The notes under the pieces were generated by a model. That model was not told where the DNA came from, made no database searches, and saw only the letters and a program-made list of their open reading frames with translations. Position numbers and translations under genes: made by a program. Below are positions 3,767 to 49,074 of a DNA stretch of 55,506 nt, piece by piece. This DNA comes from Limisphaerales bacterium (GTDB lineage Bacteria; Verrucomicrobiota; Verrucomicrobiia; Limisphaerales; UBA11358). The DNA lies in NCBI GenBank assembly GCA_003161635.1, contig PMOA01000066.1, forward strand, positions 8,164 to 63,669, in the 5' to 3' direction. The stretch's first letter is position 1. Each line of letters begins with the position of its first letter.

Positions 3767-3901
3767 GGAGCGCCGGGCGCATTTTGAGGCAGTGCCCCCG
3801 GAGCGCCGGCTTGCCGGGGCATAGCTCAGCGACGACCGGCCTCTGGCCCGGCGGGTGTTGAGATTCCAGCAGAAACGCGCCGGATCGGAAATCGGCGCTC
3901 C
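3767..3901. repeat. GGAGCGCCG...CGGCGCTCC palindromic element
   Basis: Terminal inverted repeats GGAGCGCCG and CGGCGCTCC bracket about 117 bp that contain further stems (CCGGCTTGCCGG; CCGGCCTCTGGCCCGG). The same 9-bp ends bound a 71-bp element inside the glycosidase gene at 47617-47687, which supports a mobile or expanding family. Confidence 0.7.
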
Positions 3902-3953: not shown

Positions 3954-4015
3954 GGAGCGCGGACAGCTTTGTCCGCGCGTTCATATCAACTCGCGGGCAG
4001 GGCTGCCCGCGCTCC
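3954..4015. repeat. GGAGCGCGGAC palindromic element
   Basis: 62 bp starting GGAGCGCGG and ending CCCGCGCTCC. It holds two hairpins (GCGGACAGCTTTGTCCGC and GCGGGCAGGGCTGCCCGC). Its left half closely resembles 16257-16286 in the N-terminal coding region of the neighbouring protease gene. Confidence 0.75.
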
Positions 4016-46719: not shown

Positions 46720-48981
46720 ATGCAATCGAAAACCGCGCTTTGGCTTCATTTTCATAGTATTGTCCTGCTCTGCACCGTCGCGGCCCACGCCGGTCCGACC
46801 CCGGCTGCGCCGGAGGCTTCGCCGAGGCGAGTTGACCGGCAGGCGCTGGTAACGCGGCACAATATCGTGTTGCACCAGTTCGACGCCAACAATCCTTTGA
46901 CGGTCGGCAACGGCGAATTCGCTTTCACAGTGGACGCCACCGGGTTGCAAACCTTTCCGGAAGCGTTCGAGCAAACGACGCCGCTCGGCACGTTGTCGGA
47001 CTGGGGCTGGCACACGATCCCAAATACGAACGGCTGGAGCATCGACACTTTTCAGTTCAAGGAATTCGCCGACCTGAACGGGCGCAAAGTTCCCTACGCC
47101 GACGTGCCCGGCAACAATCAAACGCCCGAAATCAAATGGCTGCGCGCCAATCCGCATCGGTTGCACCTCGGCCAGATTGGTTTTGTCCTCACGCACGCGG
47201 ACGGTTCGCCGGCGCGGACGAACGATTTGATCGACGTTGAGCAGACGCTGGATTTGTGGGATGGCCTGCTTACCAGTCATTTCAAATTCGATGGCCAACC
47301 GGTTACGGTAAAAACCGTTTGCGATCCGAAACTCGATGCGATTGCAGTGCGCGTCGAGTCGCCGCTAGTGAAACAAGACCGGTTGGCGATTCAAATTCAT
47401 TTTCCCTATGGCACGGGCGAAACGAAAACGGCGGATTGGAGCAAGCCCGATGCGCATGAGACTTTTCTAAACCAGCCCGGGCCCAACGAGGTCGATTTTT
47501 TCCGCAAGCTGGACAACGACGAGTATTTCGCGGCGGCAAGCTGGACGAAGAACGCGACGTTGCGCGAGGTCGAAAGGCATCGGTTTGTGATTTGCACCAG
47601 CACGGATTCGAGGGCGGGAGCGCCGGTCTCCGACCCGGCACGTTTGGACAAATCACGGCATCGAGCCGAATCGGAGTTCGGCGCTCCTTCGGATACGCTG
47701 GAATTGGTCTGCGCTTTTTCATCAACGAATCTCACGGCTAAAAGTTTGCCGACGTTTGCTCAATCCAAAAGCGCGGCGCAGGAGCATTGGAACCATTTTT
47801 GGCGCACGGGCGGCGCGATTGATTTGTCCGGCAGCAAGGACCCGCGCTGGTTTGAACTCGAACGCCGCATTGTGTTGTCGCAATACCTCACGGCCATCCA
47901 GGACGCCGGACAGCATCCACCGCAGGAAACCGGGCTGACTTACAATACGTGGGAAGGCAAGTTTCATCTGGAGATGCACTGGTGGCACGAGGCGCATTTC
48001 GCGTTGTGGAATCGCATCGGGCTGCTTGAGAAAAGCCTCGGTTACTACCAGAAAATTTTGCCACGCGCAGAGGCCACGGCACAAAAACAGGGCTACGCCG
48101 GCGCGCGTTGGCCGAAAATGACCGGTCCCGGCGGCGCGGAATCACCGTCGCCCATCGGGCCTTTCCTCATCTGGCAGCAGCCGCATCCGATTTTCTATGC
48201 CGAGCTTTGCTATCGCAGCCACGGCGACGGCGACCGCAAAACGCTGGAAAAATACAGCAACATCGTTTTTGCGACGGCGGGTTTCATGGCCAGCTACGCG
48301 ACGTGGGACGACGCAACCAAACGTTACGTGCTCGGTCCGACGTTGCAATGCGCGCAGGAAATTTTTCCGAAGGACAAAACCTTCAACCCGACGTTCGAGC
48401 TGACCTATTGGCGCTGGGGGCTGGAGACGGCGCAGCTTTGGCGCCAGCGCCTCGGCCTGCCGCGCGATGAAAAGTGGGACGCGGTCTTGAAGGACCTCGC
48501 CAAGCCGCCGGTGGGCGACGGCAAATACCTCTTCACCGAAAGCACGCCGGATTGTTACACGAACTCGAAATGGAATGCCGATCATCCATCGGTGACGGCG
48601 GCGCTGGGACTGTTACCCGGCCCGGGCGTGGACGCGGAGACGATGCGGCGCACGCTGGATTGGGTCTGGAAAAACTGGAACTGGCCGGACACGTGGGGTT
48701 GGGATTATCCGATGCTGGCAATGTGCGCCGCGCGGCTGGGCGAACCGGAACGCGCCGTGGACGCGCTGCTGCTCGACACGCCGAAAAACCATTACGCGCT
48801 CAACGGCCAGGTTTATCAACGGCCCGGCCTGACGATTTATCTGCCCGCCAACGGCGGCCTGCTTTATGCCGCGACGATGATGGCCGCCGGATGGGATGGT
48901 GCGCCGAAAAAGAACGCGCCCGGATTTCCAGACAATGGCCAATGGAATGTGCGCTGGGAAAATCTGCGGTCGGCGCCGTGA
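46720..48981 (+). CDS. GH65-like (alpha/alpha)6 glycoside hydrolase, exported
   Basis: 753 residues from ATG 46720, signal peptide ALWLHFHSIVLLCTVAAHA. N-terminal beta-sandwich (ANNPLTVGNGEFAFTVDATGLQTFPEAF), then a helical barrel with PPQETGLTYNTWEGKFHLEMHWWHEAHFALW and LTYWRWGLETAQLWRQRLGLP. The layout and motifs resemble GH65/GH95-clan proteins often annotated as glycosyl hydrolase in Verrucomicrobiota. The specific sugar is not predictable. Residues about 300-325 (RAGAPVSDPARLDKSRHRAESEFGAPSD) come from a palindromic repeat (47617-47687) translated in frame. It is transcribed away from the kinase gene. Confidence 0.8.
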   Translation: MQSKTALWLHFHSIVLLCTVAAHAGPTPAAPEASPRRVDRQALVTRHNIVLHQFDANNPLTVGNGEFAFTVDATGLQTFPEAFEQTTPLGTLSDWGWHTIPNTNGWSIDTFQFKEFADLNGRKVPYADVPGNNQTPEIKWLRANPHRLHLGQIGFVLTHADGSPARTNDLIDVEQTLDLWDGLLTSHFKFDGQPVTVKTVCDPKLDAIAVRVESPLVKQDRLAIQIHFPYGTGETKTADWSKPDAHETFLNQPGPNEVDFFRKLDNDEYFAAASWTKNATLREVERHRFVICTSTDSRAGAPVSDPARLDKSRHRAESEFGAPSDTLELVCAFSSTNLTAKSLPTFAQSKSAAQEHWNHFWRTGGAIDLSGSKDPRWFELERRIVLSQYLTAIQDAGQHPPQETGLTYNTWEGKFHLEMHWWHEAHFALWNRIGLLEKSLGYYQKILPRAEATAQKQGYAGARWPKMTGPGGAESPSPIGPFLIWQQPHPIFYAELCYRSHGDGDRKTLEKYSNIVFATAGFMASYATWDDATKRYVLGPTLQCAQEIFPKDKTFNPTFELTYWRWGLETAQLWRQRLGLPRDEKWDAVLKDLAKPPVGDGKYLFTESTPDCYTNSKWNADHPSVTAALGLLPGPGVDAETMRRTLDWVWKNWNWPDTWGWDYPMLAMCAARLGEPERAVDALLLDTPKNHYALNGQVYQRPGLTIYLPANGGLLYAATMMAAGWDGAPKKNAPGFPDNGQWNVRWENLRSAP
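47617..47687. repeat. GGAGCGCCG...CGGCGCTCC element inside the GH65-like gene
   Basis: 71 bp with the same 9-bp ends as the non-coding element at 3767-3901. It reads through in frame as an Arg/Ala/Pro-rich loop between two beta-strands (RFVICTSTDS and TLELVCAFSS). Confidence 0.78.
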
Positions 48982-49012: not shown

Positions 49013-49074
49013 TGGTAGGGCGGCGCTGCTGCGCCGCCGGATTGTCATGGCCGCACGGCAGCGCGGCCCTACCA
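49013..49074. repeat. TGGTAGGGC...GCCCTACCA hairpin element
   Basis: 62 bp. The ends TGGTAGGGC and GCCCTACCA are perfect inverted copies. Internal stems are GGCGGCGCTGCTGCGCCGCC and GCCGCACGGCAGCGCGGC. It is the non-coding counterpart of the element in uvrA, and lies 31 bp after the GH65-like stop where it could end transcription. Confidence 0.78.

Follow-up and report, generated by a model that had tools for sequence, protein, structure and literature searches.

The 71-bp palindrome located at positions 47617-47687 of the window (the whole stretch of 55,506 nucleotides from a Limisphaerales bacterium that was analysed here) is very probably a REPIN, composed of two inverted REPs with a GGAG(C) foot, that was most likely inserted by a RAYT and is probably tolerated as a disordered loop by the enzyme containing it. 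The initial annotation, which described a palindromic element translated within a glycoside hydrolase, is partly supported: the palindrome is real and is read in frame. What was missed is the REP/REPIN type of the family, whose foot is GGAG and which is linked to a RAYT.

The element and its host gene

The element consists of two inverted 23-nt arms separated by a 25-nt linker, each arm being made of GGAGC followed by an 18-nt hairpin. The left arm (47617-47639, + strand) starts with GGAGCGCCG at 47617 and carries GGAGC and the hairpin GCCGGTCTCCGACCCGGC, whose stem covaries across 48 arms. The linker (47640-47664) is absent from other copies, and the right arm (47665-47687, - strand) is the reverse complement GGAGCGCCGAACTCCGATTCGGC and ends with CGGCGCTCC at 47687. 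Folded as RNA, the 71 nt reach -39.7 kcal/mol (z = -5.1), and none of 200 shuffles folds as well. A pyrimidine precedes 52 of 58 arm ends; the copy of the window is without one, having G and A instead.

The host gene (46720-48981, + strand) encodes a 753-aa enzyme and is open through the element, which is translated as residues 300-323 (GAPVSDPARLDKSRHRAESEFGAP). These 24 residues lie at the low end of the 24-28 initially proposed. No family of Pfam or NCBIfam matches this enzyme above cut-off, Pfam GH65 reaching 14.4 bits for a cut-off of 27. An AlphaFold2 model obtained with 28 homologues as input (mean pLDDT 86) has GH65 7fe3 as its best structural match (E 8e-22, TM 0.62) and GH95 as a close second. 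Since the modelled fold best matches GH65 and GH95 enzymes (clan GH-L type), the initial designation "GH65-like" is a fair name. In the model, the element occupies the turn joining strands 288-292 and 326-334, and pLDDT falls below 50 at residues 299-317 and otherwise only at residues 22-34 near the N-terminus.

Homologues of the host enzyme were found in 48 of 146 relatives. They mostly align in two pieces (1 to about 293 and about 323 to 753) and have short turns where the enzyme has residues ~293-323, i.e. the loop is missing in most of them. Two relatives have an equally long insert, in which the same turn is filled in frame by an unrelated palindrome (CCCTCACCCC..CTCTCCC); a loop both as long and similar in sequence, which the annotation had held to be contrary to an insertion, was not encountered among the homologues. 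A literature search on the peptide motif of this second palindrome gave no match. Furthermore, a canonical GTAG-footed doublet (GTAGGGCGGCGCTGC...GGCCCTAC) is located at 49015-49072, 33 bp past the stop codon of the gene.

A family dispersed in the genome and the genus

Elements were collected by pattern search and from extracted stretches; the genomes are fragmented assemblies. In the 4.3-Mb genome, the half-site GGAGCGCCGNNNTCCGANNNGGC has 48 matches (control 0) and the strict two-ended pattern GGAGCGCCG...CGGCGCTCC has 28 copies (reversed control 0). The elements are mostly 67-78 bp long, with arms of 23 nt and linkers that are mostly unique. A length that is a multiple of three was ruled out as a property of the family, lengths being variable and the copy of the window having 71 bp. 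Inspection of the 12-base flanks of 29 elements revealed no consistent direct repeats that would indicate target-site duplication.

The stems are maintained by compensatory changes. Among 48 distinct arms, changes on both sides occur in 45 cells versus 15 in shuffles (the last row of this alignment carries one extra padding base, which should only lower the score), and 90.6% of stem positions pair versus at most 56% in slid controls. Moreover, the left and right arms of an element resemble each other at 8.18 of 11 core positions versus 7.21 when permuted (maximum of 5000 permutations, 8.02). The two-ended pattern was found in 23 of 49 genomes of the genus, with a dominant stem that differs by species. 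The relatives found through HemE belong to Verrucomicrobiota, largely to Limisphaerales / subdivision 3.

The window contains a second copy, at 3836-3901, with an eroded left end. The annotation had considered 3767-3901 as a non-coding element with ends identical to those of the coding one. These ends do recur, at 3767 and 3893-3901, but the interval is composite and is not one comparable intact element: the comparable doublet covers about 3836-3901, has an eroded left arm and lies behind two stray occurrences of GGAGCGCCG, one at 3767 and one at 3800. C58 and C115 carry copies in which the linker of this doublet is seen again. At 3954-4015, the window also contains a member of another GGAG family, GGAGCGCGGACAGC...GCTGCCCGCGCTCC, whose two-ended form was matched 7 times in the genome (control 0).

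In-frame copies in other genes

The search of the genome for elements bounded by these ends, which had been proposed with the initial annotation, showed that 11 of 32 elements lie in frame in recognisable genes and 21 outside any recognised gene frame; these counts cover host genes free of frameshifts and may miss genes without Pfam hits. The hosts are a P-type ATPase, the glycoside hydrolase of the window, ValS, an aminotransferase, a RAYT, a MoaE-MoeA junction, a GH106, HemE, a UvrD-type helicase, RecQ and Lnt, the elements of HemE, RecQ and ValS being placed by alignment to solved structures. Between them, the host genes read the element in all three forward frames. The insertion looks to have cost little in ValS, whereas a few native residues were apparently replaced in HemE and RecQ. 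In two relatives, 11 of 35 (G023) and 4 of 34 (G018) elements are in frame by coding score, most of them with Pfam hits, in hosts that include TsaD, RrnaAD (KsgA-type), DnaX, MutS and HemE.

Arms without stops in all six frames amount to 58 of 64, versus 39% of shuffled arms. Selection of coding copies for open frames was considered and is unsupported, since they have a mean of 4.8 open frames out of 6 versus 4.7 in the rest. Several other elements are covered by long ORFs (L022, L034, L035, L046 and similar ones) that were dropped, their domain being absent or starting beyond the element. In one locus (L042, 1110-2873), the element (residues 131-155) joins MoaE (28-121) and MoeA (from 157) in one open frame and may thereby have fused the two genes.

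Association with RAYT transposases

The genome has ten Y1_Tnp matches above cut-off. The RAYT gene on C41 has one element on either side and one in frame inside, between PNHVH and YIESNP (HUH and Tyr motifs). Four species (G000, G032, G001 and G043) have a palindromic insert of this type at the site, with an arm sequence own to each, and the site is empty in most other RAYTs. At the level of the genus, GGAGC hairpins with varied stems flank many RAYT genes on both sides, and the density of GGARCGCCG is five-fold higher in RAYT loci (4.6 per 10 kb) than in ValS and GH loci (0.9). Other RAYTs of the genome have GTAG hairpins instead. In a tree of 31 RAYTs, GGAG was found for 14 of the 15 tagged members of a supported 19-member clade versus 3 of 9 elsewhere. 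REP feet other than GT[AG]G may thus belong to a definable group of RAYTs. The shuffle test of the GGAG label on this tree was not significant (the label changes 9 times, and 124 of 500 shuffles need no more changes), and the tree does not give a single clean origin of the label.

Insertion hotspots and concerted arm changes

Some loops have received several types of inserts. Between QWFLKYP and RWAKVY of ValS, the turn is short (102 nt) in most relatives; in others it is extended in frame by inserts of several unrelated sequences, of which many are palindromes. Likewise, several species have GGAG or GGAA doublets in a six-residue turn of HemE that is plain in 53 of 80 homologues. In one HemE (L299), a GTAG-type doublet, GTAGGGCGGGCAG...GCGCCCTACC, is in frame at the loop where other species have GGAG doublets. 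The HemE gene of G001 (L267/L300) has a 23-bp arm-only palindrome at this site, GGAACGCCGGAGGCCGGCGTTCC, which looks like a REPIN whose centre was lost with the frame maintained. In ValS of two relatives (L156 and L163), the same loop contains a far larger in-frame insert of about 150-200 residues, domain-like (...SLSHAFSHLGAANI...).

The ValS element is common to G000 and G023, with a linker identity of 88%; for random linkers, the mean is 43% and the 95th percentile 56%. All seven arm differences turn the AAC/ATC type into the GTC type, which is common in G023, where the ValS palindrome is perfect. Both arms have thus changed in concert, as DNA, inside an essential coding sequence, with conversion and re-insertion, in either direction, as candidates alike. 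More tentatively, the coding REPINs of these Verrucomicrobiota may be live members of the genomic REPIN population and not fossils, the HemE, ValS, RAYT and GH loops may be standing landing sites repeatedly invaded by GGAG, GTAG and other palindromes, and the arms may be rewritten to the current REP type of the host through conversion or renewed RAYT action. If this is true, a selfish DNA element would edit the protein sequence of essential enzymes.

Origin of the element

We infer that a RAYT mobilised the element and that its loop is tolerated without having a function; the events would have occurred in the following order. Two REP units, each with a GGAG(C) foot and an 18-nt hairpin, would form one long hairpin in inverted arrangement as single-stranded DNA. 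This REPIN would then have been inserted into single-stranded target DNA by a Y1/HUH RAYT, from a clade flanked by the same GGAG-footed hairpins. The landing site in the glycoside hydrolase gene would be a tight turn joining two beta strands, with a net insertion that preserved the frame. Since the frame is preserved and the arms are almost stop-free in six frames, the protein probably tolerates the element as a disordered loop, and the intact frame together with a turn permissive to such a loop would explain why the REPIN was kept. The encoded peptide is most likely not under selection: the arms would evolve on as DNA palindromes and the residues would follow. In GTAG REPs, the AG that ends the foot is proposed to select a CT cleavage site (PMC8266576); the GGAG foot, which retains AG, would fit a conserved cleavage chemistry, short of proving it.

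A MITE, i.e. a DDE-type transposon in truncated form, bounded by long terminal inverted repeats and in frame by chance, would share the inverted ends of the element and, at the small end of the MITE range, its length near 70 bp. This origin is very improbable: unlike MITE ends, each arm of the element is itself a hairpin that shows compensatory changes, consistent direct repeats were not found beside the copies, and the transposase associated with the family, which has hairpins on either side, belongs to the Y1 (HUH) enzymes. Still less probable is a domesticated protein segment, in which the loop would be kept for enzyme function (e.g. surface binding) and the palindrome would be incidental. 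The in-frame inserts at the same GH loop in relatives, and likewise at the same HemE and ValS loops, are in favour of such a segment. However, all three forward frames are used across genes, inserts at one site encode unrelated peptides, the loop is absent from most homologues and disordered in the model, and the ValS arms changed together, altering the peptide and keeping the palindrome. The least probable reading is that of an RNA element, an attenuator or mRNA-stability hairpin regulating from within the coding sequence. Although the hairpin is very stable as RNA (z = -5.1), the same element is also found in unrelated genes and in intergenic DNA, no T run follows it, and REPs acting as single-stranded DNA explain the covariation equally well.

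Comparison with known REPs and REPINs

A REPIN is a REP doublet (Bertels & Rainey 2011, PMC3116915). As in REPs and REPINs, the elements described here are dispersed, short, imperfect palindromes, arranged as an inverted doublet with a spacer in one hairpin, with compensatory stem changes and a Y1_Tnp RAYT on C41 flanked by the same REPs. They share with REPINs (PMC3116915) two inverted REP hairpins, a variable spacer, dispersed copies and an associated RAYT. Unlike these, they have a GGAG foot and tens of copies instead of hundreds, a copy number below that of most REP families. Moreover, about a third of them are in frame in genes, whereas 14 of 1067 16-mers overlap genes in P. fluorescens SBW25 (PMC3116915). 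Characterised REPs carry a GT[AG]G foot (PMC6006769, PMC3733652). Here the foot is GGAG and the three preceding bases do not form GTA; hence, the elements are filed as a GGAG variant and not as canonical GTAG REPs.

In-frame REPs are already known (Di Nocera 2013, PMC3733652), and the element of the window is a vivid example of a rarely documented phenomenon. In core and repair genes, REP dimers tagged by GTAG add 20-30 in-frame residues; intragenic GTAG repeats are most numerous in the verrucomicrobium Opitutus terrae, and insertion at the same site is reported for recB of two Xanthomonas species (PMC3733652). The elements analysed here are also REP dimers in frame in core genes, with insertions at the same site, but they have a GGAG foot, one loop is hit in many species by several families, and the arms of an orthologous coding copy have changed in concert. 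Compared with the published accounts of REPs and REPINs (PMC3733652, PMC3116915, PMC6006769), the GGAG foot, the third of copies in frame, the multi-family loops across many species and the concerted change of coding arms are new. The initial parallel with Rickettsia palindromic elements is valid in kind, both being palindromes inserted and tolerated in reading frames. The family is indeed another one, since RPE-4 and RPE-6 are tagged by CGTC (PMC3733652) and the elements described here have no CGTC foot, are unrelated in sequence and are associated with a RAYT.

With these data, a short selfish element inside essential proteins can be followed comparatively across many species. Its states include empty loops, filled ones, loops refilled by other families or shrunk to a 23-bp remnant, and elements with both arms rewritten. 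Since they can be compared across species, the choice of insertion site by RAYTs and the evolution of REPINs as DNA during translation become testable. In addition, such loops in models or alignments should be viewed as insertions and not as conserved protein features.

In tnpAREP of subclass 2.4, REPs are inserted in frame between the HUH and Tyr motifs, and double-foot REPs arise through central deletion (PMC6006769). The elements described here resemble them in both respects, but have a GGAG foot and occupy the RAYT site in four species, with an arm sequence own to each. At the RAYT site hit by GGAG elements elsewhere, the RAYT of another relative (L177 of G022) has a different palindromic peptide in frame, GGDGSSPQAADLECGDEPSPP.
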